NCBI GenBank assembly: GCA_963422465.1
Contig: OY730172.1
Span: 3,534,001 to 3,598,000, forward strand
Length of the DNA: 64,000 nt
Source: Lichina pygmaea
Taxonomy: Eukaryota; Ascomycota; Lichinomycetes; Lichinales; Lichinaceae
Direction: 5' to 3'
Of this stretch, positions 3,155 to 59,667 are shown piece after piece (positions within the stretch are counted from its first letter, which is position 1; each line of letters opens with the position of its first letter). The notes beneath the pieces were generated by a model. The model had not been told where the DNA came from. It made no database searches and saw only the letters and a program-made list of their open reading frames with translations. A program made the position numbers and the translations under genes.

Positions 3155-3630
3155 AAAGTACTTTTCCCACTGTCAAGCCTGTTGGAGTAAGTTCTTGTCA
3201 TACTTTAATTTCAAGATTAGCTACTATCCAGGCAGTCAGTGCAAGGCCAACACCCTTACTTAATGTTCCCAAGACCTCCTGTCAGACAGTGATCTCTGTC
3301 AAGACTTCATGGAGTAAGTTATCCTCAAGCCCAAGAATCTTGTATATTCAGAGGTTCAAGTCAAGTCCATCCAGATCCTGAGATGTTCAGAAGCTGTACC
3401 AGTTGACACTGAACCTGATGCTGCACCTTTTTCAGACATCATCCAAGCTGCCTATAATAACCTTGCTGAAGGTGATCTAGTGGTAACAGTGTCACAGATG
3501 CTAAGGGATAGTGTCAGGTATAGTTGAGAAGTGTCTCTCTCAGACTGCAGCTTGGAAAATAACTATCTCTTCTACAAGAACTGACTCTGGATCCCTGAGA
3601 ACAATAAGCTATGCCTATACCTGTTCCAAG

Positions 3631-4067
3631 AGGGGTGGCATGGTGTAGTGGGAAGCTGGTGAGAGTTTCCCACTACGTGGCACCCATGACCCGGAACTAG
3701 TGGTGTCAGGCCTGGAGAACCTGACTAAACTAGTCGTCAGTTCGAATCTGACCCACCCCACATTCTGCCACAAAAAACCCCTGAGATTCATAGAACTTGT
3801 CTAAGATGTACTCCTCGCAAGATGTATGAAAGCCCTCAAGAAATAGCTCACCCAATATCTGTCAAGATCCACAAACTCTTACTACTGTGGTTTTCCTATT
3901 TTCCCTACGGGGTTTGGGGTTTTCCCACAGTACGTACACTACAAACCACGGGGTGTACGGTAAATATGTGAGGTTCCTGAGTCAAGTCTACCAGAGACAA
4001 AAATTCCTTCAAGAAGTTCTGCATAGCTTAACAGCTGAATCAGTGTAAGAATCAAATCAAAAAAAAA
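3631..4067 (+). mobile_element. tRNA-derived SINE with LINE-type 3' tail
   Basis: A 437-bp insertion flanked by a perfect 12-bp duplication (ACCTGTTCCAAG at 3619-3630 and 4068-4079). Its head (3632-3760) has a tRNA-like frame: GGGGTGG at 3632-3638 pairs with CCACCCC at 3753-3759, and a perfect T arm precedes it (GTCAG, loop TTCGAAT, CTGAC, 3736-3752), giving a Pol III box B. A box-A-like segment follows position 3638. The middle about 230 bp is unrelated to anything else in the window. The last about 60 bp match the 3' ends of the local Tad1-like LINEs (TCTGCATAGCTTAACAGCTG, then CAGTGTAAGAATCAAATC and an A-run). This is the structure of a SINE mobilised by a LINE reverse transcriptase. No second copy is present in the window. 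Confidence 0.85.
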
Positions 4068-5419
4068 ACCTGTTCCAAGAAGTCCATGACCAAGTAATAG
4101 CTGGCTACACTGGGATTGCCAAGACCCATAATCTTCTGTCTTGTTAGTACTATTGGCTAAAGATAGTGAACATCATACAGTAGTACATCAGGAATTATTA
4201 TGTCTGCTCTTAAGCAAAACCTGCCTGTGATCACCAAGGAGAGCTGCTGTCTCTTCCTGTACCTCAGCAACATTGGCAGGATCTGGCTATAGATTTCATT
4301 ACTGACTTACCCAAGTCAAGAGATACCTGCTTCCCTGGTGCCAAGCATATCTAGGTTATCACTGACTGTCTCACCAAAGAACACCACTTTATGCTATGTG
4401 CTGAGATAACAACTTCACATCTTGTCTAGATGTTCATCCAGTTTGTTGTCTATACCCATGGCTTGCGCAGGAGTATTGTCTCAGACAGAGGAGGTCAGTT
4501 TGTCAGCTTATTCTGGAAAGCACTCTGTGCCCATCTTGACATCATGCTACAACTATCCTCAGGACACTACCCAGAGATAGATGGTCAGACAGAACAAGAG
4601 AATTAGGAGCTTGAACACTACCTGAAATTCTATATCAACTATCTCCAAGATGACTAGGTCCAATGGCTTCCTCTGGCAGAGTTCACGTAGAACAACTCCC
4701 AGTCTGATTCCTCTGGCATGTCACTGTTCTTTGCCAACAAAGAGTTCTATCCACAGCTCAGTATCACACCCATGAGTGAAGCCTGCAATCAAGATGCTAT
4801 GGAAATCTCTGGAGAAATAACGCAGATTCTGGAACAGTTGCAAGCTGAACTCTGACTATCCCAGGAAGCTCAAGCTCATACCACCAATTTGCATCAAGTC
4901 CTATCACTATCCTATCAAACTGGAGATCTTGTTTGGCTGAATACCAAGAACATCAGAACATGCCGCCCATGCAAAAAGCTTGACAATAAGTGGATTGGAC
5001 TATTCAAGGTGTTGAAGACAGTCGGAAGCTATGCCTGCTATCTGGAGCTTCCACACACCCTCAAGATCCACCCTGTCTTTCATGTTTCCCTTCTACGTCT
5101 GACACCTGCTAATCCTATCCCTGGCCAATCAAATGAACACTCTGGCCGTGTCATTAGTCAAGACGCAGATGAAGAGTTCCAGGTTGAAGAAATCCTTGAC
5201 TCCAAGCCAGCAACATCTTGACAGAGGTTCAAGTACCTGGTCAAATAGTCTGGATGGCCAATTGAAGATACTACTGAAGAGTCTATTGAGTATCTTGACA
5301 ACGCCAAAGACACCATCTACAACTTCCATGAGAAATACCCAAGGAAACCACAGCCACGGAACTACACCCACAAGTGGCCTGAGGCTCACAGGAGTTTGCC
5401 ATGTGAAGGAGGGGGGTAA

Positions 5420-5685: not shown

Positions 5686-5868
5686 TTTTCTTTCTACCAG
5701 TCACTACAAGATTTCCTTTTGCTATATTCCCTAGTCACTCCCTGTCTTCAGTTTTTATTCTTTTAAAGGTTTTCTGAAGAAACTCACTCTTAGCTAGAAG
5801 ATCTGCATGGCTGAAAAGCTACTATCAGTGTAAGAATCAAATCAAATCAAAATCAAAAATTCCACTGT
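5686..5868 (+). mobile_element. 5'-truncated Tad1-like LINE fragment (3' end only)
   Basis: About 183 bp matching the 3' untranslated end of LINEs L2 and L4 (CTGTCTTCAGTTTTTATTC, AGATCTGCATGGCTG, CAGTGTAAGAATCAAATC) and ending in a (TCAAA)n/A-rich tail. It carries no coding sequence. It begins exactly at the end of the G2 LTR, which may have been its insertion point. No clear flanking duplication was found. Confidence 0.85.
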
Positions 5869-26093: not shown

Positions 26094-26486
26094 TCTGACT
26101 TCGGAGACGAGGTGGGCATTGAGATGAAGCGCATTGAGTTGAAACTCAGATATGGTAACTACTTTACACAGCTAGTGGAGACGTGCTAGACTGAGTAGTG
26201 AAATATGTGACTACTACTTTCAACAGGACCCCGCATATGTCGCTCCCTCCAGAGATCATCAATTCTGACTCTGATACTGACAGAGAGCTGGGCGCTTACA
26301 AATCACCACACGTGGCCGTGTTTTCCACGCGGATCGGCTTACTAAGGGCTGATAAGAGGTGCGTGGTGGCTTTCGAATTGTCGATTGGCCCGATAAGCCG
26401 TAGGGCTGAACTGGAATATACCGTCGTGCCAAACCCCCAAGATGTGACGTCCAAAGTCCCTCCACTCTGAGACCGTGACGGTCACA
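26094..26486. promoter_or_regulatory. Bidirectional promoter between TFB4 and the UCS chaperone gene
   Basis: The 393 bp separating two divergent start codons must hold both promoters and 5' UTRs. No TATA box stands out. The segment just before the + strand start (GACCGTGACGGTCACAATGG) contains the palindrome-like word GTGACGGTCAC. Confidence 0.55.
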
Positions 26487-30391: not shown

Positions 30392-30582
30392 TATTTTTTT
30401 TATTTTTATTTTTATTTGATTCTTACACTGATTGTAGCTTTACAGCCATGCAGATCTTCCAGCTAATAGTGAAATTCTTCAGAAAACCTTTAAAGGAATA
30501 AAAACTGAAGACATGGGGGTGACCAGAGAGTGTAGCAAAGGAAATCTTGTAGTCTGGTAGAAAAAAGCTTCTAGATGTTGGG
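30392..30582 (-). mobile_element. Tad1-like LINE 3' end fragment, cut by a gypsy LTR
   Basis: About 190 bp on the minus strand matching the 3' end of L4 (the complement contains CAGTGTAAGAATCAAATAAA and CTTCAGTTTTTATTCCTTTA). The A-rich tail is on the left. It stops at the first base of the G3 LTR in the middle of sequence that continues in L4, so G3 appears to have inserted in it or recombined with it. Confidence 0.88.
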
Positions 30583-31182
30583 TGTTACGACCCAGGGATG
30601 GGAGCCACTCATTTATAAGCAATCAGGCCGCGAGTCAGGCAAGAGGACACCATGGAAGTCAAGTGACCAACCAACAAGGGGTCACGTGACTGTCGAGACA
30701 CACACAGGAGTCTCGACGCAGCATGCATGAAGCATCGAGACAATCTCACCAGTCTCGACACAGCATGCATGAAGCATCGAGACAATCTCACTGGTCTCGA
30801 CGCAGCATGCATGAAGCATCAAGACAATCTCACCTGTCTCGATGCAGGATGCATAACATGGTGGGACTGTCAAGACAATCTCACCTGTCTTGACGTCAAG
30901 ACTGTCAAGATAATCTTGATTGTCTTGACAGGCCAGCACTATATAGTCCAGCGATAGTTCCCTTATGGAATGATTGTCTTCAACTCATGTTGTGATCCAG
31001 ACAACTAGATCTACTTCAATACAATCCCTTTGTACGAAGCCATTGATCAGGTGTCACCACCACCACGTTCCACCAAACCCCTTCGCACTCCTTGACACTC
31101 CTCTCCTGCGAGAACCAACCTGCCTTCCACCTCTCACCCTAATCCTATACTTGGATAGGACAGTACGGTACAGACCGCAACA
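30583..31182 (+). repeat. 5' LTR of gypsy G3 (600 bp)
   Basis: TGTTACGACC..CCGCAACA, exactly 600 bp as in G4. U3 has three 42-bp units (about 30710-30835) with GCATGCATGAAGCATC and GAGACAATCTCACC words. The TATA box TATATAG lies at 30940-30946. Confidence 0.92.
30710..30835 (+). repeat. 42-bp tandem repeat in U3 of the G3 LTR
   Basis: Three 42-bp units starting GTCTCGACGCAGCATGCATG, about 100-230 bp upstream of the TATA box. The same units are present, in reverse, in both G4 LTRs (for example 33265-33390). They produce short repetitive peptides in translation that are not genes. Confidence 0.9.
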
Positions 31183-31194
31183 CTTTGAAGACCC
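30976..31194 (+). promoter_or_regulatory. Putative self-priming pair in G3 (R start and primer-binding site)
   Basis: The bases just after the LTR (CTTTGAAGAC at 31183-31192) do not look like a tRNA-primer site but contain the reverse complement of GTCTTCAA at 30976-30983, which lies about 30 bp after the TATA box, where transcripts should start. Tf1/sushi chromoviruses prime reverse transcription from their own 5' RNA end in this way. An eight-base match is suggestive only. Confidence 0.45.
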
Positions 31195-33528: not shown

Positions 33529-33572
33529 CTACCCTCCTCTCCTTCATTCATCGTCCTGATGAATTCTTGAGT

Positions 33573-39470: not shown

Positions 39471-40973
39471 ACAGACAGAGCTAGTCTGCCATGAGACGCA
39501 GCCAATGGAAATGGTTACCGGACACCATGCTGAAAGGATCCACCTTGATATTGTCGAGTTGGCCACTCAGGATATCTATTTGGGGATGCCTTGGCTAAAG
39601 AAGCACAACCCAGTTGTTAACTGGAGAACAGGAGTACTCACGTTTAGGAACTGCACTAACAACAGCTCAGACCTGTTACCAGCCGCAGAAGGCGTGGACA
39701 GATAAGGGAAGAAGTCCTCAGTGGAACCTCACTGACAGAAAGAACAACTCTCAAGAGAAGAGGTCCGCCTTGACAGGCACACCCCGGAACCAGGTGGTCA
39801 AACAGTCAGAGATGAAGAGAGAGGAAGTTGTTAACCCTCTGGAGATCCCTGAAGAGTACTGACCTGGGTATGATAACCTCTTTCAGGAAGAGACAACAAC
39901 AGCAGTATTACCTAAGCACCAACCTTGGGATCATGAGATCAAGTTGCAACCAGGGACGGAGCCAGGATTTGGACCAATTTACCAGTTATCAGAGAAAGAG
40001 CTCCAAGTACTTCGCGAGTACCTGGAGGAAAACCTGAAAAAGAGTTTCATTCAAGAATCTCAATCACCAGCAGGATACCCAATACTATTTGCACTAAAGA
40101 AAGATGGAAGTCTTCAACTTTGTGTGGATTACAGGAAACTCAACAACACTACCATCAAGAACTGATATCTGTTACCAAATGTGAACAAATTGCAAGACAG
40201 GATCAGCCAAGCTATAATCTTTACCAAGCTGGACTTGAAAGGAGTATACAACCTGATACACATGAAAGAAGGAGAAGAATGGAAGACAGCCTTCAGAACC
40301 TGATACAGACACTACGAGTATCTGGTTATGCTATTCGGACTCACGAACACACCAGCAACATGTCAAGCATTGATCAACAACATCATCAGAGCACACCTGG
40401 ACTAAACAGCTATCACCTACCTGGACAACATTCTTGTCTACTTGAACACGCAACAGGAACATACCAAACATGTGAAGGATGTTCTACGATGTCTACAACA
40501 GGCAGGGCTCAAGCTCAACCCAAAGAAATGCAAGTTCAACAAACCAGAAGTTAAATTCCTCAGATACATCATAGGAATCAAAGGGATCAAGATTGACCCT
40601 GAGAAAATCAAAGTGATTCAGCAATGGCCAACACTGACATCAGTTAAGAAAGTACAAGTCTTCCTAGGATTTGCCAACTTCAACTGACAGTTCATAAAGA
40701 ACTACTCACAGATGGCAACACCACTGACAGAACTCACAAAGAAGGATGTGGAGTACCAGTTTTTATTTTATTTTATTTTATTTTATTCTTACACTGATTT
40801 AGCTGTAGAGCCATGCAGAACTTCTAGGTACATGTTTGTTTCTCCAGAAAACCTTTGGAGGAATAAAAACTGGAGCTTGGGAGAGACTAGAGAAAATCTT
40901 GTGGAATATGCAGTAGCTAAGGAAATTTGTACATGTAGCTATTTGTTAAAACAAACAGTTGACTTGGTAGAGC

Positions 40974-43900
40974 TTAGAAAGAGAGTTGGTGGGCTAGGTT
41001 GAACTGGTCAAGTCTTTTCAAAGACATAAACCAGAAAAGAAGTTTAGGAAGTAGCTTGGAGGAGAATAAGATAGATGGGAAATCTTGTAGAGGGAATTGG
41101 ACTTGTTGTCTTTGGTTTGAAAATTTGGTACAGAAAAAAGTGATGTGTTGGGCTGTTTCTTCTCCAAAACCACATGTGCATAGAGGGGAGTTAAAGTCTA
41201 GAACATTTGCTCTGAAAAGAAAACTGGCCAGTCCTATTCTTGCTGACAGAATTTGAAGAAATAGACTAGACTCAGCTTTTCTCAAATCTTTGAAGATATT
41301 GAGGTTTTTCTTCTGTGGCCTTCTGGTGAACATGTCCCAAATAGCAGAACAATTTCCTCTACTTTCCTGCCATCTGGCTTCCTATTCTTTATGGAAAAGC
41401 TCCTGTAGACTTTTCTTTGAGAAGTCTTGGTTAGTAGTTAGTTGTTCCAGCCAGACTGTTCTCCAGTTTAGAGAAATAGTTGTCAGAGACTTTGGTGTAG
41501 TTCTGAGAGAAGAAACATAGAGAGAAATTTGACTGTGTAGTTTGTGGAGAAGTGTAGAAGAAGAGTTTGGTAGTGTGTTTGAATAGAAAGATAAAAGAAA
41601 ACATGCTGTTCTCAGCTTGAAGTATAAGTCTAGAGGGGGTAGAAATAGTTCTGATTCAAGTAGGAAAATAGGAGTGGCTTTAAAGACACCTTCTATAGTT
41701 CTTAAACATTTATTTTGGAAAGTAGATAATGAAATAATATTAGAGAGTTTCTTTTGGGGATTGAACCAGACTCCTACTGCATAACTAAGAAGAGATCTTA
41801 GTATAGCAGTGTAGACATGACGTGCTGTTAGGACTGGTAGTCCCCAAGTAGAGTAGGTTGTTCTGGATAAAGCTGAGAAATATTTGGAGGCTTTCTGTGA
41901 CATGATTTTTTGGTGTTTTTTCCAGACAAGTTTTGAGTCAAAGTAAAGTCCCAAGATGCGCACTTCTTCTTTTGGTTGAAGTACCACTTCTCCAAGTCTT
42001 AGACTGAGCTGAAGATTGTCTCTTCTTCTTCTAGAAAAATAGAGAAGTTTATACTTTTCAGGTGCAAACTTCATACCATGTTTTCTTGCCCAGTCCTGAC
42101 ATTTGGAATGTGTAGACTTCAACTTGAGAAGGTTGCTTTTCAAGGAGGAGGAGAATGCAAGAAGATTAGTGTCATCTGCAAAACCAAGTGCTGAAACTCC
42201 TTTCTCGGGGGTGTGTACAGTATTGTGCAGTTCTGAGATATAGAAAAGAAATAGAATAGGAGAGAAAGGTGATCCTTGAGGGACTCCACAGTATATAGGG
42301 AACTGGGGGGATTCTGAGTCATCAAACACCAGAGAGGTAGTGCGTGAAGTAGTGAAGGAAAAGATCCAGGATACAAACCACTTAGGAATCATTCTCTTAA
42401 TCAGGATCTTTCTGAGAACTTCTGGCAAGACTCTGTCATAGGCTCCAGAGATGTCTAGAGGGAGAGGACTAGCAACCATTCCTTCTTTCCAGATCTTTTC
42501 TACCTGGGAGGTCAGAAGAAAAAGTGCTGATTCTGTTGATCTTCCTTTTCTGAATCCCATCTGGATTTCTGGCAAGAGATTTTCTTTCTCAGCTAGTTCA
42601 CTTAGTCTTGCAGCTGCAATAGCTTCCATTAGCTTCCCAATTGTATTCAGGAGAGCTATAGGGCGCCATGCTTTTGCTTGACAGTAGGATCCCTTGCCAG
42701 GTTTCCTTAGGCAGATTGTCTTGGCTGACTTGTACCTGTCTGGAAAGTATTCCAGTCTCCAGCAAGCCTCCAAAACCTTAGCAATTCTTTTGTTGAAAGA
42801 GTCTCCCAGTGCTCTTAGAAATCCATTTGGTAGAGTATCTTGGCCTGGTGCTGAGAGAGGTTTTTTCTTCTTTAGAACCTCTTGTACTTCTTCCTTGGAG
42901 ACTTCTTGGGATAGTTGCCATTCCTGGGTTTCTTCTGGCAGGTCCTGTTCCTCTGGCTCTGGCTGTAGGGGAAGAGGGAAGAATTGAGTCCTGAAAGCTT
43001 CTGTTTTCTCTTCAAAAGACTTTGCCAGCTGTCCTTGTTGTCCTATAAGTTCTGGGACTATTGGTAGGTCAGGAACTTTGCCGGCTTTTTCTTTTCCCCA
43101 TTTGGCAATTCTCCAGTAGTCCTGGGTTTCTGCTAGCTGGTGGAGATGTGTTCTGAATGTCTTTCTTTTGGCTTGTCTGATCAGACTCTTTTTCTTTTTA
43201 GTTATCTCCTCTAGTCTGGTGGTTTCCTCTTGGCCTTGGAGTACTTTTCTTCTTACTTTTCTTTCCTCCTGGATTATTTCTTTGATTTCCTGGTTCTACC
43301 ATGGTACTGCATACCTGGACTCTTTGCAAGTTTGGGTTGTCTTGTTTGCAATTTCTTGGAGAGTTTTGTCCAGTCTTTCCAGGTAATCATCCACTTCTTT
43401 CTTGCTAGTAAGAGATGGAATAGGTGGTAGGTTATCAGCTTCTTGTCTTGCTTGACTAGCATCCAGAGTTCTCCAGTTCTTTTTGTCTGTTCTGGTTTTT
43501 CTTGGAGTCTCCAGACTGAGAATTGTGTGCACTGGTCTGTGGTCTGACTCTGTGTGGAATCTCATGTTAATTTGTGAGTAAATAAGAGAATTAAGTAAAG
43601 AACTTGAAATAAAAGAAAGATCAATTGCTGATGAAGGTGGTTCTAGAAGAGTTCTTGCTCTTGTTGGTGTGTAGGGAGCTATTGCCAGCTCTAGTCCCTA
43701 TTTGTCTGTTAGGTTCTTGAAGGATAAGGCCAGTTCTGAGTATAGCTGGCTTGACTTTGACCAACTTGGGTGGTGGAGATTTGAGTCTGTCAGGAGAATA
43801 TGTTCACCCTCTTTTTGGATAGCTTGTTCCAGTAGGTCTAGAAGAGTCTGAGCTGACTCTCTATAGTTCCTTTGGCTTGTGGGTGTGAAATAGAGGTTGT

Positions 43901-44213
43901 GGATCCAGAATGACTTTGTTTGAACTCTTATCTCCAAGGAGACTAGATCTTTACTCCAGAAAATTGGGCTTATAGATGACCGCAAAATTCTTCTGTTAAC
44001 AAGAACAAGTGTTCTCCCTAGCTCCTGGCTTTGTAAAGGGTAGAAGGCTGAGAATGTTGTAGAGATGCTTGATTCTTGGTGGGGGTTTTTCCAGGGTTCT
44101 TGCAGAGTGATGATGTCCACTTCCTGTAGTCTAGAGTTTGCCAGTAGAAGTTCTTGGCATGTCTGGCTTTTCTGGACATTGTACTGGAGAAGGTTAAGTG
44201 TGGAGTAACTCAT
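40974..44213 (-). pseudogene. LINE L1 ORF2, endonuclease-reverse transcriptase with three stops
   Basis: One frame of 1,080 codons. An APE-type endonuclease opens it (LLQYNVQKSQ, LQEPWKNP, LLTDSNLHHPSWS, then ESDHRPV). The reverse transcriptase follows, with APGQDTLPNGF, WRPIALLNTIGKLMEAI, QMGFRKGRSTESAL, SGAYDRV, GVPQGSPFSPILF and the catalytic GFADDTN. The C-terminus has a CTCGFGEETAQHITFFC motif. Three in-frame stops are visible: near 43696 (TAG where L3 has Gln), near 43293 (TAG for Trp) and near 41380 (TAG for Trp). There are no frameshifts, so decay is recent. No RNase H domain is seen. Confidence 0.88.
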
Positions 44214-45616
44214 TAATCCTCTTGGCTAGAGTCTTCCAAGATCTCAGTAGCTTTTTTTCTGGGTATGTTGATTTGGAACTCTGAGTTCTGTGCAAGTGGG
44301 AAAGTGGGGAGCTGAGTGTTCAGTCTTGAGCTTGAGCATGCTCTTAGTACTTCCCCTTGTTTTCTTTTCTTAGCTTCTTGTCTGTCTTGTAGACTTGGCT
44401 CTTTTTCTTGTGTTGAGGGAGTCTGAGGTAGAGCTAGTCTGGGAGCTATTGTGTACCTCCCTGGTCTTGCTAGCCATACCTCTCTTGCTTTCTGGATTGC
44501 TTCCTGTTTTTTCTGGCAGGACTTTGACCAGGCTGGGTGGTTTCCCTTGCAGTTTGCACATTTTGGTGTTAGAGTTTCTGGAGAAGTCTGGCAGTCTCTT
44601 CTGGCATGCTTTCCTCCACAGGCTGTGCACTGGGCTTGGGCTTGGCAAGTGCGTGCTTGGTGTCCAAACCTAGCACATTTGTAGCACTGGGTGACTGATG
44701 TTGCTAGCAGGGCTGGTTCTACTTCATGTAGAGTGTATCCTAGAACTACTCCTTTCTCAATTAGGAGGTTTGCTTGCTCTGGGGTGGCTAGATCCAGATG
44801 TAGAGATGTGACTGGCTTCTGGAGGAGTTTGGCTTTTCTGGACCAGTAGGTTCTTAGGATGTTGACCTTACTTTCCATCCCAGAGTTTTGGGAGAAGATT
44901 GTCTTTTTTGTTTCCTCCAGGTTTTCTGGCTTGAAGTCTTTTGTCTGCACCCCATGGACTAGCACTGGAAAGATTCTGGGTGATATCTTGGCCTCTGCTG
45001 TAAAGACAGCTGGGATCCAGTCCTTGTTTTCCTCTAGCTGAGTCTTGGCTTGAGGAGTTTCCAGAGAGATTATAATATCTCCTGAGGGTAGTTTTCTGGC
45101 TGCTCTTATTTCTTTTTGGCAGGAGAGTGGTGTTTTCTTCTTGAGAGCTTCCATGAGCTGGGCTGGTGTTCTGTTTGCTAACTGGCCAGTCTGAGTTCCA
45201 GGTCTGATAGTGATTTCACTGTGGATTCTGGTTGGAACAGGGATTTCCTGTCCTACTGTTTTCTGGGCTGCCTGGGTATATGTTGGCTTGGTGTTTTGTT
45301 TTTGGACTTGTTTCTCAATGCTGTCCAGTCTCTCAAGTATCTTCTGGAGACTCTGGGAGTTAGGTGAGTGAGTAGAGACATCTTTGTCCAGAGCTTCTAC
45401 CACTTTGGACAGAATACTATCCCATGCTTTTTTGATGTGTTGGGGAGCTTTTGTGTGGATAAGCCATTCTTCCACTAGCTGGGGAGGTGTCAGCCCCTTC
45501 TTTTCTTCTTTTTCTTGAGTCTGGGATTGGTCTGTCAGGGAGTTAGCCACTGGGGGTTGCTGGGAGCTTGGAGAAGACTGGTTTTCTTTCTCTTTCTCTG
45601 GTTTTTTCTTTGACAT
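44213..45616 (-). CDS. LINE L1 ORF1, nucleic-acid-binding protein
   Basis: Open for 467 residues from the ATG at 45616 (MSKKKPEKEKENQSSPSSQQ). A central region of about 250 residues resembles the RNA-binding part of Tad1-type ORF1 (LHLDLATPEQANLLIEKGVV). The C-terminal part has three CCHC/CCHC-like knuckles: CYKCARFGHQARTC, CTACGGKHARRDC and CANCKGNHPAWSKSC. It should bind LINE RNA in the ribonucleoprotein particle. The stop TAA shares one base with the ATG of ORF2 (TAATG at 44211-44215), suggesting re-initiation. The frame reads open further upstream, but without another ATG. Confidence 0.88.
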   Translation of the reverse strand: MSKKKPEKEKENQSSPSSQQPPVANSLTDQSQTQEKEEKKGLTPPQLVEEWLIHTKAPQHIKKAWDSILSKVVEALDKDVSTHSPNSQSLQKILERLDSIEKQVQKQNTKPTYTQAAQKTVGQEIPVPTRIHSEITIRPGTQTGQLANRTPAQLMEALKKKTPLSCQKEIRAARKLPSGDIIISLETPQAKTQLEENKDWIPAVFTAEAKISPRIFPVLVHGVQTKDFKPENLEETKKTIFSQNSGMESKVNILRTYWSRKAKLLQKPVTSLHLDLATPEQANLLIEKGVVLGYTLHEVEPALLATSVTQCYKCARFGHQARTCQAQAQCTACGGKHARRDCQTSPETLTPKCANCKGNHPAWSKSCQKKQEAIQKAREVWLARPGRYTIAPRLALPQTPSTQEKEPSLQDRQEAKKRKQGEVLRACSSSRLNTQLPTFPLAQNSEFQINIPRKKATEILEDSSQED

Positions 45617-46236
45617 TATGTGATTTTGGGTGTCTTCCAGCAGTTCTTTTTGGCTGGGATTGGTGAGGCTCTTTTGGAGACTTCTTCCAGTTGTTCGCAA
45701 AGGGTCACCTGGTTCCTAGCAGTAGTTGCACAATCCTGGGACCACTCCCCAAGACTGTACTTTTCTGGGCAGTCTTTTCCAACTAGACTCTAGGGAAATC
45801 TGGTTGTATTAACTCAAGCTAGGGACCACACCCCCTGCCTGAGCTTTCCTAGAGTTTTTCAACTCTACCAGCACTAGAGGCAAGCTCTAAACTATTCCTC
45901 TTATCCTGGGAGCTCTGATCTCCTTGTTGGTGGGTGTTTCTCACTTTTAGGAGAGGTTTCGTGTTTTATCTCTGATAGACTGGGAGTGCTGGCTCAATCC
46001 TCTGGTCCCTCTCACTCTTGTTGTGGCTGGGTGGTTGGTAGTTGAAGCAAGAAGACATGAGTTCTGGGATCACAACTTTTGACCAATAGGCCTGATTCAG
46101 AAAAGTGATGGGTTTTCACTCTTGGGAAGTGGGTGGTTTCAGCAAGCTTCACGACTGGTTTCCAGGACTTATGACCAAATGCGCTGATTGTCAAAAGTGA
46201 TGGTCCTTTGACGATCTGGTACTGGGAAGAGTTTTG

Positions 46237-46342
46237 TAGTGTGTTCATATGTCTGAATAGTATAACCAGATACTTGTAGTGTCTATATCAAGTTCTGAAG
46301 ACTGTTTTCCATTCTTCTCTTTTTTTTATGTATATCAGGTTG
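46237..46342 (-). mobile_element. Gypsy sliver (reverse transcriptase part) between LINEs
   Basis: About 106 bp on the minus strand matching 36249-36350 of G4 (for example ACCAGATACTTGTAGTGTC). It continues for a few bases at 47883-47886 after LINE L2. It is wedged between the 5' ends of L1 and L3 and is a remnant of another copy of the same chromovirus family. Confidence 0.85.
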
Positions 46343-47867
46343 ATTCTGAGTCTTGTTCAATTCCTATTTATTGTGGAGTTTCTCAAGATTCTCCATTATC
46401 CCCTATTCTTTTTCTATTCTACATTTCTGAATTGCATGAGACTGTGCATACTTCCTCTTCTGGTGTATCTGCCCTGGGGTTTGCAGATGATACAAATCTG
46501 CTTGCTTTTGGTCACTCCTTGAAAAGTAACCTTCTGAAGTTAAAGAACACACACCTCAAATGTCTATCATGGGCTGTAAGACATGGAATAGTCTTCTCTT
46601 CTGAGAAATATGAAATACTTCATTTTTCCAGAAGAAGATCAAACAATCTTCAGCTCAAGCTCAGACTGGGGAATGTGATTCTCAAACCAAAAGAAGAAGT
46701 GCGAGTACTTGGAGTGTACCTAGATGCAAAGCTCCACTGGCACAAACACCACAGGATTATTCTTCAAAAAGCACAGAAAGCACTCTCTTCTCTTTCTAGA
46801 ACTTCCTATTCTACTTGGGGCTTTCCAGTTCACACATCATGTCTGGTGTACACTGCTATACTGAGATCTCTACTGAGCTATGCAGTGGGGATCTGGTTTA
46901 ACCCTCTAAGAAAATCCTCCAATATCTCTTCTCTTGTTTCATTTCAAAACAGATGCCTAAGACTTATTGGGGGTGCCTTCAAAGCCACTCCTTCTTTTCT
47001 ATTAGAGAGTGAGCTTTTTCTTCTACCTCTAGACCTATACTTTAAATTTCACACTGCCTGTTTTCTTTCTTCTATTCAAAACTCCTCTCTCAAATACTTT
47101 CTTGACAGTATCTTTTCCACTATTTCCAGCTATGCCTCTCTCTTGAAGAAACCTTTAAAGGAATCCTCAACTATCTCTCCTAAGTGGAAATTCACTTGGT
47201 TAAGTCAAATAACTACTAACCAGGCTAGTTTGAAGAAAGAACTACAAAAGCTCTTTACTAAAGAGTGGGAAGACTAATAGGAAGAGAAGAAAAGAAGAAG
47301 CTATCCAGGCTGGCAGACTTTCTGTCAAAAGCCACACAAAAACAATCTGAAGCTCTACAAAGAGTTACAGAAAGCTGAGGCAAGTCTGCTACTGCAAATC
47401 AGGACTGGAAGAATTGGTCTGGCAAGTTTTCTTTTCAGAGCTGGAGTTCCTGACTTCCCTACCCCACTATGTGTGTGTGGCCAAGCAGAAGAAACTGCAA
47501 AACATATCACCTCTTCATGCTCTCTTTATTCAAGACAAAGACAACAAGTCTCTTTTAATCCCCAAGACTTCACCACTATTATTTCAAACCCAGAGCTACT
47601 ACAGAAGTTCTTGTACTGGTTTATGTTTTTGAAACAACTAAACCAGTTTAATCTAGCTTTCAAACTCCACTATTCCCAATCCAATACCTAGATTCTCTTC
47701 TCTTACCAGAAACTTCAAGATTCCTTTTGTTACATTCCCTAGTCACACCCTGCCTTCAGTTTTTATCCCTTCAAAGGTTTTCTGAAGGAGTTCACTATTA
47801 GCTAGAAGATCTGCATGGCTGTAAAACTACTACCAGTGTAAGAATCAAATAAAAAAAATATAAAAAA
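46343..47867 (+). mobile_element. Tad1-like LINE L2, 5'-truncated
   Basis: A 1,525-bp LINE on the + strand with a perfect 15-bp target duplication (ATGTATATCAGGTTG at 46328-46342 and 47868-47882), the hallmark of target-primed reverse transcription. It starts inside the reverse transcriptase (IPIYCGVSQDSPLSPILF, GFADDTNLLAFGHSLKSNL) and includes the C-terminal CMCG/CVCG..H..C motif and the 3' UTR with CAGTGTAAGAATCAAATAA and an A-rich tail. One stop splits the frame at about 47275. It belongs to the same subfamily as L4 by both protein and 3' end. Confidence 0.93.
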
Positions 47868-47886
47868 ATGTATATCAGGTTGTATC

Positions 47887-50800
47887 CAACTCTTCCCAGT
47901 ACTACATTATCAAAGGACCATCACTCTTGACAATCAGTGGATTTTGTCATAAGTCCTGGAAACCAGTCATGAAGCTTGCTGAAACCACCCACTTCCCAAG
48001 AGTGAAAACCCATCACTTTTCTGAATCAGGCCCATTGGTCAAAAGTTGTGATCCCAGAACTTATATCTTCTTGCTTTAACTACCAACTACTCAGCCACAA
48101 CAAGAGTGAGAGAGACCAGAGATATCCTGAAGGACTGGGCAAAGCTGTACCTAACTTGGAACACAACAGAGAGAGAAGCCAGTAGTTTTCTGGAGAACTG
48201 GAGACAGGCTCCAATTACCAAGAAACACTCAGTCTTGGGGTGTAGTCCCAGGATTGAGTAAGTACTCCCAGTTCAAGAGGAAAACAGAGAGTGGAAAAGT
48301 GGAATAACTTGAGCTCTACTCTTGGCTGGCAGAATCTAAGAATTCAAGAAAAGTCTAGATAGGGGGTCTGGTCTCTAGTCTAGGTGAATACTCCCAGACC
48401 TAACCCAGAGCTTAGAAGGAAGAAGCTGCCCAGGAAAGTCTAGCTCTGAGGTCTGGACTCAGAGCTAGATCACTACTGCTGGGAAGTCAGAGTACTCTTC
48501 TCTTTCCCTCAACTCTCTCAACTCTCTAAAGGTATTACTACTGGAAACTCAGAGCTATAGTCTCAAAAAAGAAAAACCCAGTCCTCCCCAATACAACTCT
48601 AGAGCACCAATCTCTATACTGGCTCCCAGATCCCCCAATATATAATCTAGCTCTTCTTCTTTATCTATTCCCCCAGAGCCAAGCCAACAAGATATCTCTC
48701 TGGCAACACCAGATCAACAAGCTGGAGAAAACACACTGCCAGTATCCCAGATTGTTGAAGTCTGGCTAAACTAGTCTAAAGCTCCCCTAAAGGTACAGGC
48801 AGCATAGAAAAAAATCACCACCCAGCTAGCAAGCCACATAGCCACACCTTCCACCACTGGACAAGAGATCTAGAAAGTTCTCCAGAGACTGGACAGAATT
48901 GAGAAAAATATGCAAACACCAGCATCTAATCTCTTCTATACTTAAGCAGTCCAGAAAGCTACAGTTCAGGAAATTCCAGTTCCCCAGAGAATCTTCAGTG
49001 AGATTACTATCAGACCTGGAGTCCAAACAGCACAGACAGGAAACAGAACACTCTCCCAGCTTGTGCAGGCTATCAAGAACAAAGTCTCTACATCTTGCCA
49101 GAAAGATATCAGAGCAGTCAGAAAGCTCTCTTCTGGTGATATTATTATCTCTCTGGAATCTCCCTTAGCCAAGACCCAACTAGAACAGAACAAAGACTGG
49201 ATCTCTGTAGTGTTCTCTGAAGAAGCTAAGATCTCTTCCAGAATCTTCCCAGTCATGGTTCATGGAGTTCAAACAAAGAACTTTAACTCAGATAACCTGG
49301 AAGAAATAACTAAAACTATCTTCAGACAAAACCCTGGTATAGAAAACCAGATCAAAATCCTGAGAACCTACTGGACCAGAAAGTCTAAACTTCTTAAGAA
49401 ATCTGTGATATCTCTGCACATAGATCTTGCAATACCTGAGCAAGCTGATCTACTAATCAAGAGAGAAGTTGTACTTGGCCACATGATCTATAAAGTAGAG
49501 CCAGCACTTCTGGATACATCAGTGGTCTAATACTACAAATGCTCAAAGTTTGGACACCAGGCAAGAACCTGCCAAGCTCAAGCACAGTGCCTGGCATGTA
49601 GAGAAAAATATACCAGAAAAGATTGCCTAATTCCTCAAGAAAAGCTAGTTCCCAAATATGCTAACTGTGGAGGGAAGCACTCTGCTTGGGAAAAAGTCTG
49701 CCCTAAAAAGTGGGAAGCTACACAGAAAGCTAGAGAATCCTGGCTCACCAGACCTGGAAGATACACCACTCCAGAAAACATCCTTTCCACTTTTATCTTC
49801 TCTCCAAGCCAGACCACTAATACTGGAAGTGGCTCTAATCTATCTGATAGAAAGGATAGGAAGAAAAGAAAACAGGGAGAGCTAGTGAGAACCAGATCAA
49901 GTACAAGATTTAGCTTTTAAGCAACCTTTCTGCAAAACCTGAAGACTACTACTAATCTTCCAAAACAAAACTCTTTTGAGATACTTGTGGATTCTAAGCC
50001 AGAAGTTTGATAAGTACACCAACTCTCAACCTTCTCCAGTATAATGTGCAGAAAAGCCAGACATGTCAAGATCTTCTACTAGCTAACCCCAGACTCCAGG
50101 AAGTAGATCTGATTGTACTTCAAGAATCTTGGAGAAATCTATACCGGGAAACAAGTACCTTAACAGTCTTCTCAGTCTTCTACCCTCTTCAAGACCAAGT
50201 GTTAGGGAGAACTCTGGTTCTAATCAACAGAAGAATACAGAGGTCAGCTATAACCCCTGTGTTCTGGAACAAGAATTTAACATCACTGGAGATAAGAGTG
50301 CAAGGAAAAGTGTTCTGGGTACATAACCTGTACTTCACACCTACAAGTCAGGAAAACTACAGAGTATCAGCAGAAGCTCTACTGGATGTACTAGCCCAGG
50401 CACTGGAGAAAGAAAGAGAGCATATTCTTCTGACTGACTCAAACCTCCACTATCTATCCTGGTCAAAGTCCTCCCAACTCTACTCTGAACTAGCTACTAA
50501 GTTCAAAGAACTCACAGATGATCAAGGACTAGAGCTGGCACTAGCACCTTTCACACCAACAAGAGCAAGAACACTGGCAGAGCCTCCCTCCTCTACTATT
50601 AACTTATCTTTTATTTCTATATCACTTCTTAATTCCTTTATTTCTTCCCAGATTAACCTAGACCTCCACACAGGTTCAGACCACAGACCAGTTTAGACAA
50701 TCCTAAGTCTGGAAACACCAAAGAAAGCCAGAACCCACTAAAGAAACTGGAGAACACTAGATCTGGACCAAGTCAAGAAAGAAGCTAAGAATCTTCCCTC

Positions 50801-53435
50801 TATTCTACTACTACTTAACAGAGAGGAAGTGGACAACTATCTGGAGAACCTGGACAAAGTTCTTCAAGAACTGGCTGACAAGATAACAAGACCTCTGAGA
50901 AACTTAAAGCACACTGTTCCCTGGTGGAACCAAGAGATTAAAGAGAAAATTAAAGAGGAAAGAAAACTAAGAAGAAAAGTCTTCCAAAACCAAGAACCAG
51001 TCTACAAACTTAAAAAAGTAATAAAGGAAAAGAAACACCTGATCAAGAATACTAAAAGAAAAACATTCAGAAAATAACTCCAGAACCTGGCTGAAATACA
51101 AAAGCACTGGAAAATAGCTAAGTGGGGTAAACAAAAAGCTGGCAAACTACCAGAACTTCCAATTGTTCTAGAGCTCACAAAGCAAGATAGAGAAACTGCC
51201 AGAACTTTCACAGAAAAAGTAGAAGTATTCAAAACCCAGTTCTTCCCTCTACCTCTCCAGCCAGTACCAGAATCCTAGGACTAGCCAGCCAACCACCAAC
51301 AACACCAGCTATCTCAGGAAATCTCCAAAGAAGATATTCACAATATTCTGAAAAAGAAAAAATCTTTTACAGCTCCTGGGAAAGATACTCTACCTAATAG
51401 ATTTCTAAAAGTATTAGAAGACTTTTTTAACAAAAAGATAACCAAAGTTCTGGAGGTCTACTGGAAGCTACAATATTTCCCTGATAGATACAAAGCAGCC
51501 AGAACAATATACTTGAGAAAGTCTAGCAAAGAATCCTATTGCTATGCCAAAGCTTGGAGGCCAATAGCACTTCTTAACATAATTGGGAAGCTGATGGAAG
51601 CTCTGGCAGCCACAAAGCTAAGTGAACTAGCTGAGAAAGAAAACCTACTACCAGAAATCCAGATAGACTTCAGAAAAGGAAGATCAACTAAGTCTGCACT
51701 ATTTCTACTCACTTCCCAAGTTGAAAAAGTCTGGAAGGAAGGAATAGTAGCCAGTCTTCTTTCTCTGGATATCTCAGAAGCTTATGATAGAGTTCTGCCA
51801 GAAATTCTCAAGAAAATCCTGGAGAGAAAAAAAATCCCCAGCTGGTTTGTTAACTGGATTTTTTCTTTCACTACCCAAAGAAAAACCTCTCTTGTTTTTG
51901 ATGATTTAGAGTCTTCTTTTTTTCCAGTATACTGTGGAGTCTCTCAAGGTTCACCTCTCTCTCCTATTTTATTTCTTTTCTATTTTGTAGATCTTCATAA
52001 TATTGTTCATACACCAGAGAAAGATGTATCAGCTCTGGGCTTTGCAGATGATACAAACCTTCTGGTATTTTTCTCTTCTCTTAAAAGTAATCTCCTGAAG
52101 CTAAAGTCTACTCACTCCAAGTGTTTTGATTGGGCAAGAAAACATAGAATAAAGTTTACACCTGAAAAGTATAAACTTCTCTATTTTTCTAGAAGAAGAA
52201 TAGATAATCTTCAGCTTAGTCTAAGACTTGGAGAAGTGATACTACAGTCTAAGGAAGAAGTGTGTATTCTGGGACTACACTATGATTCCAAGCTTTTTTG
52301 GAAAAAACACCAGAAAATCATGTTACAGAAAGCTTCCAAGTTTTTCTCAGCACTTTCCAGAACTACTTTTTCTACATAGGGTCTACCTGTTCTCTCTGCT
52401 AGACTTGTCTACACTGCAATACTGAGATCACTTCTCAGCTATGCAGCAGGAGTCTGGTTTAATCACCACAAAAAACTTTCTAATATTTCTTCTTTAAATC
52501 TTTTCCAGACTAAGTGTCTAAAAACTATAGGAGGCGTCTTCAAAGCTACTCCTACATTTCTTATTAAAGGAGAACTATTCCCACTACCTCTTAATCTTTA
52601 TTTTAAATTCAGAACAGCAACTTTCCTACAATCTTTCTATTTTTCTAATACTTCTTCTAATCCTCTCTTCTCACTTCTCTATAAGCTTTTTTCCCAGATC
52701 ATTGTTTTTGTTTCCACTCTGAGAACACCTGTAAAGTCTCTGTCTACTGTCACACCTAACTGGAAAGCAAGATAGCTAGAAGAACTAACCACTAACCAAG
52801 ATTACTCTAAGAAATAATTTTAAGAAGTGTTTCAGAAAGAGTGGGAAGCCAGATAGCAGACAAACAGACAGAAGTGTTCTCCAGTCTGGGAGCTATTTTG
52901 CAGACTCCCCCAAAGGAAAAATCTCAAAGTTTTCAAAGACTTGAGAAAAGCTGAAGCTAGTCTTTACTTGCAGATTCTATCACCAAGAATAGGACTAGCC
53001 AGCTTTCTTTTCAGAGCAAATGTTCCAGACTTCTAATCCCCTCTATGTTTCTGTGGTTTTGGAGAAAAGATTACTCAATATATCACTTTCTCTTGTAACA
53101 AGTTTCTTACTCAAAGATAGTAAGCTATTTTTCTTTTCTACAATTTCTCTACTTTACTTCAAAAGTCTAAAGTACTTAAAGAATTTCTTCTCTGGTTTAT
53201 GTCTTTGAAAAGACTAGACCAGTTTAACTTAGCACACTAACTCTTACCAGAAAACCTATCATCTCTGTGATTTTATTTTCTCCAGACACTGTATATTCTT
53301 CCAGATAATTCTCTAGTCTTACCCAAGTCTTAGTTTTTATTTCTTCAAAGGTTTTCTGGGAAAAAAAGCATGTATCTAGAAGTTCTGCATAGCTCACCAG
53401 CCAAATCAGAGTAAGGATAAAATAAAAAAATAAAT
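47887..53435 (+). mobile_element. Tad1-like LINE L3, full length but heavily decayed
   Basis: About 5.5 kb on the + strand. The 5' UTR starts CCAACTCTTCCCAGTAC, as in L1 and L4. ORF1 remains at about 48650-49919, with a long open part at 49063-49530 and degraded zinc knuckles to about 49690. ORF2 remains from about 50007 (ISTPTLNLLQYNVQKSQTC, the start ATG changed to ATA) through endonuclease (LLTDSNLHYLSWS, GSDHRPV) and reverse transcriptase (51513-52379, SEAYDRV, GVSQGSPLSPILF, GFADDTN) to about 53240. It then has a 3' UTR and A-rich tail. Several premature stops are present (for example 50694, 51075, 52377), nearly all TAG/TAA from Gln or Trp codons. L1 and L5 are its nearest relatives. 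The flanks do not form a target duplication. Confidence 0.9.
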
Positions 53436-54199
53436 AACACACCAAAATGCCATTATAGACACACACACTTGTTGATTCAGAAGCTAACAGAAACTACATC
53501 TCAAGACAATTCCACAACACTCTCAGCACCAAACAAAAACACAAAACATAATCTTACCAGCTTGTGATAGTAAATAGACAGACAGAGCTAGTCTGCCATA
53601 AGACACAGCTAATGGAAATAGTTACCAGACACTATACTGAAATAATCCACTTTGATATTATCAAGTTGGCCACTCAGAATATCTACTTGGGGATGCCTTG
53701 GCTAAAGAAGCACAACCCAGTTGTTAACTGGAGGACAGAAGTACTCACATTTAGGAACTGCACTAACAACACAGCTTGGACCTGTTACCAGCTGCAGAAG
53801 GTGTGGACAGATAAGAGAAGAAGTTCTTAGTGGAACCTCACCACCAGAAAGAATAACTCTTAAGAGAAGAGGTCTGCCTTGACAGGCGTACCCCAGAACC
53901 AGGTGGCTAAACAGTCAGAGATGAAGAGAGAAGAAGTTGTTACCTTTCTGGAGTTGTCTGAAAAGTACTGATCTGGGTATAATAACTTTTTTCAGGACGA
54001 GATAACAATAGCAGTATTACCTAAGCACTAACCTTGAGATTATAAGATCAAGTTGCAACCAGGGACAGAGCCAGGATTTAGGCCAATCTATCAGTTATCA
54101 GAAAAAAAACTCTGAGTACTTTGCGAGTACCTGGAGAAAAACCTGAAAAAGAGTTTTATTCAAGAATCTCAATCACCAGCAGAATACCCAATACTATTT
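53436..54199 (+). mobile_element. Gypsy copy G5, protease to early reverse transcriptase
   Basis: A + strand fragment of the G1/G3/G4 chromovirus family: protease region (about 53450-53830) and the start of reverse transcriptase (to 54199), where LINE L4 interrupts it. It resumes at 59668. It is strongly decayed and broken in many places, more than G3. No LTR of this copy is in the window. Confidence 0.88.
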
Positions 54200-54377
54200 T
54201 TGATTTTGATTTGATTTGATTTGATTCTTACACTGTTTGTAGCTTTACAGCCATGCAGATCTTCCAGCTAATAGTGAACTTCTTCAGAAAACCTTTAAAG
54301 GAATAAAAACTGAAGACAGGGAGGTGACTAGAAAGTGTAGCAAAAGAAAATCTTGTAGTGTTTGGTAGGAAAAGCTT

Positions 54378-57300
54378 CTAGATGTTGGAGTGTGAATAGT
54401 GAAGTTTGAAAGCCAGATTAAATTGGTTTAGTCTTTTCAAAAACATAAACCAGTACAGAAACTTCTGTAGAAGCTCTGGGTTTGAAATAATAGTAGTGAA
54501 ATCTTGAGGGTTAAAGAGAGCATGTTGTCTTTGACTTGAGTAGAGAGAGCATGAAGAGGTGATATGCTTTACTGTCTCTTCTGCTTGACCACACATGCAT
54601 AGAGGGGTAGGAAAGTCAGGGACTCCAGCTCTGAAAAGAAAACTTGCTAGACCAATTCTCCCAGTTCTGGTTTGCAGTAGTAGACTTGCCTCAGCTTTCT
54701 GTAGCTCTTTGTAGAGCTTTAGGTTGTTGTAGTGAGGTTTTTGGCAAAACACCTGCCATCCAGCATAGCCTTTTCTTTTCTTCTCCTCCCATTGGTTTTC
54801 CCACTCTTTAGTAAAGAGTATTTGTAGTTCTTTCTTTGAACTAGCCTGGTTAGTAGTTATTTGACTTAACCAAGTAAAATTCCAATTAGGAGAGATAGTT
54901 GAGGATTTCTTTAAAGGTTTCCTCAGTGAAGAAGCATAGGAAGAAATAGTAGAAAAGGTACTGTCAAGAAAGTCTTTCAGAGAGAAGGTTTGGATAGAAG
55001 ATAGAAAACAAGCTGTGTGAAATTTAAAATAGAGATCTAGAGGTAAAAGAAAAAGCTCACTCTCTAATAGAAAAGAAGGAGTGGCTTTGAAAGCACCCCC
55101 AATAAGTCTCAGATATTTGTTTTGGAATATGATAAGAGAGGAAATATTAGAGGATTTTCTGAGTGGGTTGAACCAAATTCCCACTGCATAGCTCAGTACA
55201 GATCTGAGTATTGCAGTGTACACAAGGCGTGCTGTGAGAACTGGAAAGCCCCAGGTGGAGTAAGAGGTTCTAGAAAGAGAAGATAGTGCTTTTTGTACTT
55301 TTTGAAGAATAATTCTCTGGTGTTTGTGCCAGTGGAGTTTGGCATCCAGGTACACTCCCAATACTCGCACTTCTTCTTTTGGTTTTAGAATCACATTCCC
55401 AAGTCTAAGCTTGAGCTGCAGATTGTCTGATCTTCTTCTGGAAAAATGAAGTATTTCATATTTCTCAGGAGAGAAGACTATTCCATGTCTTGCAGCTCAA
55501 GATAGACATTTAAGATGTGTATTCTTCAACTTCAGAAGGTTGCTTTTAAGAGAGTGTCCAAATGCAAGCAGATTTGTATCATCTGCAAATCCCAGAGCAG
55601 AAACACCAGTAGTAGGAGAATGTACACTCTCATGAAGTTCAGAAATATAAAATAGAAAAAGAATAGGAGACAAAGGGGAACCTTGGGGAACTCCACAGTG
55701 AATAGGAATAGAAGAGGACTCAGAGTCATCAAAAACTAGGGTGGTGGTACGTCTGGTACAGAAAGAGAAGATCCAAGAAGTTAGCCAGACAGGGATTCCT
55801 TTTCTCTCCAGAATCTTTTGAAGAATCTCTGGGAGAACTCTGTCATATGCTCCTGAGATGTCCAGAGAAAGTAGAGATACAACCATGCCTTCTTTCCAGA
55901 CTTTTTCCACTTGGGAAGTTAGAAGGAAAAGTGCTGATTCAGTTGATCTGCCTTTCCTGAACTCCATCTGGATTTCTGGCAAGAGTTTAGCCTCTTCTGC
56001 TACCTTGCTTAGTCTGGCTGCTGTAATAGCTTCCATCAGCTTGCCAGTTGTGTTTAGCAGAGCTATAGGGCTCCAGGCTTTAGCTTGGTTATAGATTCCC
56101 TTGCCAGGTTTTCTTAGACAGACTGTTTTTGCATTCTTGAATTTCTCTGGAAAGTATTCCAGTCTCCAGTATGTTGATGTGAGAACAGCTATAGCTTGGC
56201 AGAACTTGGGACCCAGAGCTTTCAGAAATCCATTTGGCAGCTTGTCTTTTCCTCCTGCTGTAAAAGGTTTCTTCTTGTTCAGAATTTGCTCCACTTCTTC
56301 AGTGGTAACCTCCTGAGAAAGCTGGATCTCTGGGGTACTCTGGTGACTTTCTGTACTTGGTTCTGGAACACATGCTTCTGGAAAGAATTGAGCTGAGAAA
56401 GATTTTGTCTTCTCCTCAAAGCTTTTGGCTAGTCCTTCTTGAGTCTCCAGATCAGAGACCAGAGGAAGATCAGGGGTCTTGTTAGCTTTTGATTTTCCTC
56501 ACTTTGCAAGCTTCCAGAATTTTGAGGAACTGGCTAGCTCATGAACTTGTTTTCTGAAGGTGTTCTGTTTGCCTTCTCTGACAGCTTTCTTCTTGAGCTT
56601 AGTTGCTTCTTCTAGCTCTTCTTGGCTTGCCTGTCCTCTGAGAACTTTTGTTCTTATTCTTCTTTCCTGCTTAACTTTAGTTTGGATCTCTTGGTTCCAC
56701 CAGGGGACTGAGTGGCTAGATTGCTTCTGGAGTTCTGTGCATCTCTCTGCTATTTCTTGGAGAAAGTGGTTAAGATATTCCAAGTACTCATCCACTTCAT
56801 GTTTATCTTGAAAGTGGAAGGGCAGCTGCAAATTATTACACTCTTGTTTTGCCAGGTTTGTGTCCAGTGTTTTCCAGTTCCTTTCTGGCTTCCAGGTTTT
56901 TCTTGGTGAGTCCAGGTCCAGGCTAGTTAGCACAGGTCTGTGGTCAGACCCATGAAAGAACTGCAAAGCAATTTTAGAAAAGATTAGAGAGTTAGAAAGA
57001 GAAGAAGATATAAAGGAAAGATCAATAGGTGAACAGGGTTTGTGGGAAAGAGATCTAGCTCTTGTGGGTGTAAAAGGTGCAATAGCTAACTCCAGATTTG
57101 AGTTTTTCATTAGAGTTTGGAACTTGTGTGCAGTGTCAGAATATAGTCTTCTTTTCTTTGACCAGTCAGGGTGGTGAAGATTTGAGTCTGTAAGAAGAAT
57201 ATACTGCCCTTTTGCTTGTAAAGTATTTTGGAGTAGACAGAGAAGAGCTTCTGATGCTTGTAGGTAGTTCTCTTGACTTGAGGGAGTGAAGTATAGATTA

Positions 57301-57620
57301 TGCACCCACAGAGAAGTAGAGGTGTTTTCCAGATGAATTTCAAGAGAAACAAAGTCTTTACTTCAGAAAGTAGGGTGGAGAGATGACAGATTCAGGTTTT
57401 TGTTAATAAGAAAAAGAGTTCTACCAATCTCTGGAGAATATAAAGGAAGAAAAGAAGAAAAAACAGTTGAGGTGCTGGTTTGAAGGTGAGGATTCTTCCA
57501 GAGTTCTTGAAGTGCAATAATATCTACTTCTTGAAGAGTTGGGGTTGCTAGAAGTACCTCTTGGACTGATTGGCTTTTCTGCACATTGTATTGAAGAAGT
57601 GTGAACTTTGTATTCTTCAT
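54378..57620 (-). pseudogene. LINE L4 ORF2, endonuclease-reverse transcriptase with three stops
   Basis: One frame of 1,081 codons starting MKNTKFTLLQYNVQKSQSVQ. Endonuclease motifs: LQELWKNP, LLTDSNLHHPDWS, GSDHRPV. Reverse transcriptase: GKDKLPNGFLKALG, IALLNTTGKLMEAI, EFRKGRSTESAL, SGAYDRV, GVPQGSPLSPILF, GFADDTN. C-terminal CMCGQAEETVKHITSSC. Three in-frame stops occur, near 57360, 56496 and 55494; each is TGA where a relative has Trp (TGG). No frameshifts are visible. By comparison with L1 the length is complete. Confidence 0.9.
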
Positions 57621-59017: not shown

Positions 59018-59667
59018 AGGGTAGGTAACCTGCACAGTGGGTTGTTCACAAAGAGTCACCTGGTTCCTAGCAGTAATTGCACAATCCTGGGACCACTCCC
59101 CAAGACTGTACTTTCCTGGGCAGTCTTTTCCAACTAGACTCTAGGGAAATCTGGCTGTATTAACTCAAGCTGGAGACCACACCCCCTGCCTGAGCTTTCC
59201 TAGAGTTTTTCAACTCTACCAGCACTAGAGGCAAGCTCTAAACTATTTCTCTTATCCTGGGAGCTCTGATCTCCTTGACGCTAGATGTTTCTCTTGAGAG
59301 AAGTTCAAGCTGTTATCTCTGTCTGACTGGGAGTACTTGCTCAATCCTGGGACCACACTCCAAGACTGAGTGTTCCTAGGTAATTGGGGCCTGTCCCCAG
59401 TCTTTCAGAATCCCACTGGCCACTCTCTGCCTTGTTATAGATAGTCTGTTGGTTGTTGAAGTTGAAGATCAAAGATTCAGAGATCACAACTTTTGACAAA
59501 CAGGCTGGGTTGCCCAAAGTGATGGGTTTTCATCTTAAGGTTTTGGTGGTTCCCAACAGATACTCGCTTGGTGTCCAGAACTTCTGACAAAGTCCGGTGA
59601 TTATCAAAAGTGATGGTCCTTGAACGTGGTGGTACTGGGAAGAGTTTTTGATGACCCAATACTATTT

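Follow-up and report, generated by a model that had tools for sequence, protein, structure and literature searches.

Pairs of a SINE and a LINE of the Tad1 clade are stated in passages of PMC4176376 (citing Okada 1997) and PMC5135761, and a tabulated section of PMC3747384 gives Mg-SINE with MGL (MGR583) and SINE2-1_BG with Tad1-24_BG as pairs. Mg-SINE of Magnaporthe, 472 bp long according to a passage of PMC5063351, mimics the 3′ end of MGL, which is termed "molecular mimicry" in the relevant passage of PMC2104539. As described in these passages, it resembles the SINE reported here in being fungal, of tRNA type, similar in length and provided with a 3′ end like that of a resident LINE. It belongs, however, to another organism and the likeness is one of description, whereas sharing of the nick site is shown by position for the present SINE. 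The likeness to SINE2-1_BG of Blumeria is also by description, this element being of tRNA type with a Tad1 LINE, Tad1-24_BG, as its listed partner (PMC3747384, same section). In Aspergillus fumigatus, AfuSINE2-1a has a tRNA-type head, a Tad1-like 3′ end and a short simple repeat, but differs from the present SINE in its approximately four copies and its (ACT)n end (both from passages of PMC5063351). A relation between the two was rejected, with a similarity score of 13 against a shuffle maximum of 15. The motif ACATT directly follows the tRNA-like head of the present SINE (3760-3764) and also the tRNA part of AfuSINE2-1a, with no wider similarity. Outside fungi, the LINE UnaL2 of eel, which is of the L2 clade, is an example of the stringent-type LINE/SINE pairs of fish. 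In these pairs the LINE protein acts via the common 3′ tail, as experimentally tested (PMC4176376, passages on such pairs), while we infer the fungal pair described below. The initial annotation had considered SINEs tied to Tad1 LINEs to be little described, but the pairing is less novel than this suggests, given the pairs already published for Magnaporthe, Blumeria and Aspergillus. The present SINE is a new, well-supported case of a kind of fungal SINE/LINE pairing already known.

The window analyzed is a stretch of 64,000 nucleotides (contig C4, 3534001-3598000) from the genome of Lichina pygmaea, which comprises 32.47 Mb in 8 contigs; its features are collected in Table 1. The SINE insert (3632-4067) sits inside a decayed Ty3-like element, of which one open frame (1409-2122) carries SH3 and chromodomain matches and another (4856-5218), downstream from the SINE, a Tf2-1-type SH3 domain. 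The unoccupied form of the target was found at 192 places in the genome (up to 3 mismatches), compared to 0 for the reversed-pattern control. The longest stop-to-stop frames across the SINE are 80 and 72 amino acids. An insert at 3631 to 4067 with a perfect 12-bp target duplication had been annotated; both the insert and the duplication are there, but the start moves by one base. Base 3631 is part of the duplication (12 to 13 bp) and lies outside the SINE. The start is set at the GGGG at 3632 because the first consensus base is variable among the 77 full copies described below (36 T, 22 A, 12 G and 7 C). Elsewhere in the window, a gene at 26448-29216 encodes a protein with an UNC-45/Cro1/She4-type domain; among the 120 matches listed, a metagenome protein reaches 98% and no named fungus exceeds 51%.

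Table 1. Features of the 64,000-nt window (positions counted from its first base)
Feature	Position	Strand	Basis
Target-site duplication, 5′ copy, ACCTGTTCCAAGA	3619..3631	+	read in sequence
SINE copy (head, body, LINE-like tail, terminal repeat)	3632..4067	+	genome matches, head motif, consensus
tRNA-like head with acceptor-like ends, T arm and two hairpins, one of them holding box A	3632..3760	+	fold; no ARAGORN or Rfam tRNA
Box A, TGGTGTAGTGG in window copy, TGGTGTAGCGG in consensus	3641..3651	+	pattern in 77/77 copies
Box B, GTTCGAATC, 99 nt after box A	3740..3748	+	pattern in 75/77 copies (most chosen by a motif overlapping it)
Body, no relation to LINE A or C detected	3761..4011	+	scores like shuffles
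LINE-matched 3′ tail	4012..4057	+	BLAST to seven window LINE 3′ ends; consensus comparison
Terminal TCAAA/A-rich repeat, LINE C-like	4051..4067	+	repeat-unit counts
Target-site duplication, 3′ copy, ACCTGTTCCAAGA	4068..4080	+	read in sequence
Empty copy of shared SINE/LINE site, Ty3-like Tf2-1-type SH3 region	4913..4931	+	pattern, domain match
LINE family C-like 3′ end, 5′-truncated	5691..5858	+	BLAST tail match
LINE family C-like 3′ end, 5′-truncated	30396..30585	-	BLAST tail match
LINE family A copy 1, endonuclease and RT	40766..45715	-	BLAST, Pfam
LINE family C, 5′-truncated	46341..47868	+	BLAST tail match, terminal repeat
LINE family B, RT	48884..53437	+	BLAST, Pfam
LINE family C, long broken copy, endonuclease and RT	54200..59140	-	PF14529 and PF00078, separate open frames
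LINE family A copy 2, cut by window end, RT	59835..64000	-	BLAST, Pfam

The insert belongs to a SINE family of high copy number. In a genome search with 40 of 722 candidates scored, 41 matches came back: the window copy itself (100% identity) and 40 more at 95 to 97%. A 19-base head motif occurred at 217 places with up to 2 mismatches (81 of them exact) and its reversed-pattern control at 1. Reading of 78 loci gave 77 full copies, with 10 incomplete rows, either LINE tails or SINE pieces that were truncated or cut, left out of the set; 5′-truncated copies are under-counted here, since most loci were chosen by the head motif. The 5′ end is fixed across all 77 copies. Target duplications of 11 to 18 bp, most commonly 13, flank 71 of them, and the remaining 6 have none; in a control that joined the 5′ flank of one copy to the 3′ flank of another, a duplication appeared in 1 of 231 combinations. 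The annotation of this insert as a SINE is borne out by the number of copies, the variety of their flanking duplications, the constant 5′ end, the retained tail and empty insertion sites. The family is apparently young, the median identity of the copies to the 426-nt consensus being 98.2%; the window copy equals the consensus at 409 of 428 aligned positions. C-to-T changes among the 77 copies fell mostly at CpG (241/2464, 9.8%), as against 59/4543 (1.3%) at CpA, 66/5082 (1.3%) at CpC and 11/3927 (0.3%) at CpT. Classical repeat-induced mutation is of CpA type, and with changes so strongly biased to CpG it was rejected as the main form of decay.

We recognized boxes A and B in the head by the usual definitions of the Pol III boxes. 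The head of the window copy (3631-3764) folds with a z-score of -5.1, and none of 200 shuffles was equally stable. It is framed by a T arm and an acceptor-like stem; a normal D arm is absent, and in its place there is a long hairpin that carries box A. The perfect acceptor pairing annotated for this copy was confirmed, but it is not a property of the family: only 12 of the 69 parsable copies, the window copy included, pair at 7 of 7 positions, whereas 52 of 69, as well as the consensus, have one C-A mismatch. ARAGORN found no tRNA without introns across the window and none with introns of up to 200 nt in 3601-3800, and no Rfam tRNA matched the head up to an E value of 1; the reading of the head as a tRNA gene, normal or with introns, was rejected. 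Introns occur in many of the tRNA genes found here (loci L039-L068), reaching 84 nt by ARAGORN. When the head was compared to a partial set of 37 genome tRNAs (62 of 631 candidates scored, 30 loci), the best match was tRNA-Tyr with a score of 16. This exceeds the maximum of 13 among 50 shuffles but falls below the median of 17 among these tRNAs across different isotypes, and tRNA-Tyr was therefore rejected as a proven parent. A derivation of the SINE from a tRNA is suggested by its boxes, T arm and acceptor-like stem; among the 37 tRNAs, none could be named as its parent.

The LINEs of the window fall into three families, A, B and C, which may belong to the Tad1 clade. Pfam matches to PF14529 (APE-type endonuclease) and PF00078 (RT) were found in LINEs A and C and to PF00078 alone in one scanned LINE B frame. 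Among the 120 matches listed, the two species-named relatives are from Lachnellula and Histoplasma. No RNase H was detected (Pfam, up to E = 0.1) in six relatives, the longest of 1080 amino acids; the scan covered relatives, and the 3′ stretch of the window LINE itself is interrupted by stops. RNase H is reported for the Tad-clade element I-1_AF in a passage of PMC5063351. The 3′ end of the long LINE C copy (54200-59140) has genome matches at 98 to 100% (best 40 of 1149 candidates). Target duplications were found for two of the seven window LINEs, both of family C. Large inverted repeats formed by LTR-type elements with gag and integrase domains adjoin the LINEs, at 30583-32928 with 37125-39470 (93% identity) and 1-2624 with 33515-36139 (88%).

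The SINE tail gave a best BLAST match of E = 2e-15 to the LINE 3′ ends in the window. Its last 46 nt agree with the LINE consensus sequences at 41/46 (A), 40/48 aligned (C) and 39/46 (B) positions (83 to 89%), and matching ends sharply upstream, at AGAAG. A LINE-like tail is therefore present as annotated, but with a length of approximately 46 nt plus a simple repeat instead of about 60. The repeat itself starts with ATCAAAT in 24/24 LINE C ends and 0/22 LINE A ends, the latter having ATAAAAT in 21 of 22 cases and ATGAAAT in one; a further 9 LINE ends, from SINE loci and without a reliable A or C label, stand outside these counts. In two window copies among the 24 LINE C ends, the sequence continues A-rich without a second TCAAA. 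TCAAATC, the LINE C-type repeat, is found in 72 of 77 SINE copies. A pattern for the A-type tail matched 101 genome places, while one pattern search for a LINE with the exact hairpin of the SINE matched 0; by another pattern, the hairpin was seen at one place, C2:1125990.

SINE and LINEs were also compared by their insertion sites. The SINE target follows the logo CT^A(T/C), with T at position -1 in 0.90 and A at position 0 in 0.82 of 71 sites. Comparison of the 71 SINE targets with 56 LINE 3′ flanks gave 12 pairs with common local sequence; by our reading, 6 of these agree in the nick position once the A's of the tail are allowed for, at three distinct sites in all, and the other 6 do not. 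A shared site within a Ty3-like element, YT^ATCAAACTGGAGRTCTTGTT, is present in 182 empty and 12 occupied places. The site search yielded 11 of the occupied ones, assigned by position and strand to the SINE (4), LINE C (6) and LINE A (1); the twelfth (L137) is a LINE C from a LINE C-specific search, bringing that family to 7. Occupied copies with other junction letters would be missed for the SINE and LINE A, and the occupancy is a biased estimate because the site was chosen for an existing SINE/LINE C coincidence. One of the SINE-occupied copies (L093) has no detectable duplication and another (L073, C3:2353000-2355500) holds a tandem pair of SINEs, the second apparently inserted in the target sequence duplicated by the first at this shared hot site. 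With 12 occupied and 182 empty places, SINE and LINEs therefore have a target base in common, a result that does not depend on the tail match. The shared recurrent site indicates common target use at single-base resolution and provides evidence of partnership beyond tail similarity. The annotated borrowing of a resident LINE 3′ end is accordingly supported on three sides, by the tail sequence, the terminal repeat unit and the common insertion site.

As judged from these sequence comparisons, the SINE is probably mobilized in trans. The enzymes most likely come from LINE C or from a near relation carrying the C-type repeat, because LINE C has both the repeat and the recurrent site in common with the SINE. 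A-type enzymes may also serve, since LINE A is closest in the hairpin portion of the tail. The partner is not fixed, as sequence favors A (41/46 versus 40/48 for C) and the repeat favors C, and occupancy of YT^ATCAAACTGGAGRTCTTGTT alone does not separate LINE C from LINE A in this respect. A partner LINE that has died out or escaped sampling, and that joined an A-like hairpin to a C-like repeat, would account for a tail that is nearest A in one part and nearest C in the other; the present A and C would then be its relatives. It would also account for the result of the one pattern search, in which no LINE with the exact hairpin of the SINE appeared. We regard such a partner as unlikely, though it is the most serious of the alternatives: LINE C inserts at the exact site of the SINE, and both look young, the SINE with its median of 98.2% to consensus and LINE C with ends at 98 to 100% (best 40 of 1149).

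Given its LINE-like 3′ end, the element could alternatively have arisen from a LINE by deletion, as a short nonautonomous fragment lacking the Pol III head of a SINE. This is very improbable in view of what lies upstream from the tail. In comparisons of the 250 nt preceding it, 157 of 200 shuffles scored as well against LINE A and 42 of 200 against LINE C, and the similarity to these families is thus that of shuffles. A weak 37-nt match to LINE B (0/200 shuffles, then 10/2000) is not collinear with the tail and came from one of three comparisons, and a LINE B origin for the body was rejected. The annotation of an unrelated body is upheld by these comparisons. The fixed 5′ end and the constant positions of box A (77/77 copies) and box B (75/77, a count biased by the choice of most copies through a motif overlapping box B) also argue against a LINE fragment.

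The SINE and LINE A have a similar predicted fold of the tail, which does not stand out clearly from shuffled sequence: of 200 shuffles, 27 folded as well as the SINE consensus, 50 as well as the window copy and 31 as well as LINE A. Values were worse for LINE C (122 and 83 for two C-type ends) and LINE B (99). Although this lack of significant stability in the 3′ stem-loop would suit a chance or convergent tail match, with copying via the A-rich end alone as in relaxed-type LINEs, that explanation is the least probable of all given the E value of 2e-15 for the window tail, its conservation among LINE families only 65 to 72% alike elsewhere, and the terminal repeat and nick site common to SINE and LINE.

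We put at roughly 85% the probability that the insert is a SINE that combines a tRNA-like head with a LINE-matched tail, likely transcribed by Pol III and copied by the reverse transcriptase and endonuclease of a resident LINE. From this anatomy and the known LINE/SINE mechanism (passages of PMC4176376 and PMC5135761), the head would drive Pol III transcription and the LINE protein would bind the tail of the transcript. The LINE endonuclease would then nick the bottom strand at CT^A(T/C), the freed 3′ end would prime on the UCAAA repeats, and repair of the second strand would leave the target duplication.

More tentatively, the TCAAA end might be a targeting device that anneals to nicked ATCAAA, in a mosaic tail whose A-type hairpin and C-type repeat would open it to more than one enzyme; this is a possibility that we rate well below the mobilization itself. 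If targeting by TCAAA is true, the SINE and its host LINE would enter the same base of a Ty3-like element independently. A well-documented, apparently young and high-copy SINE is added to the three fungal SINE/LINE pairs found in print. The parts of most interest are the site shared at the nucleotide level and the possible mosaic tail, and the rest fits established understanding. Since hairpin and repeat point to different LINE families, this SINE represents a natural test of the two requirements.
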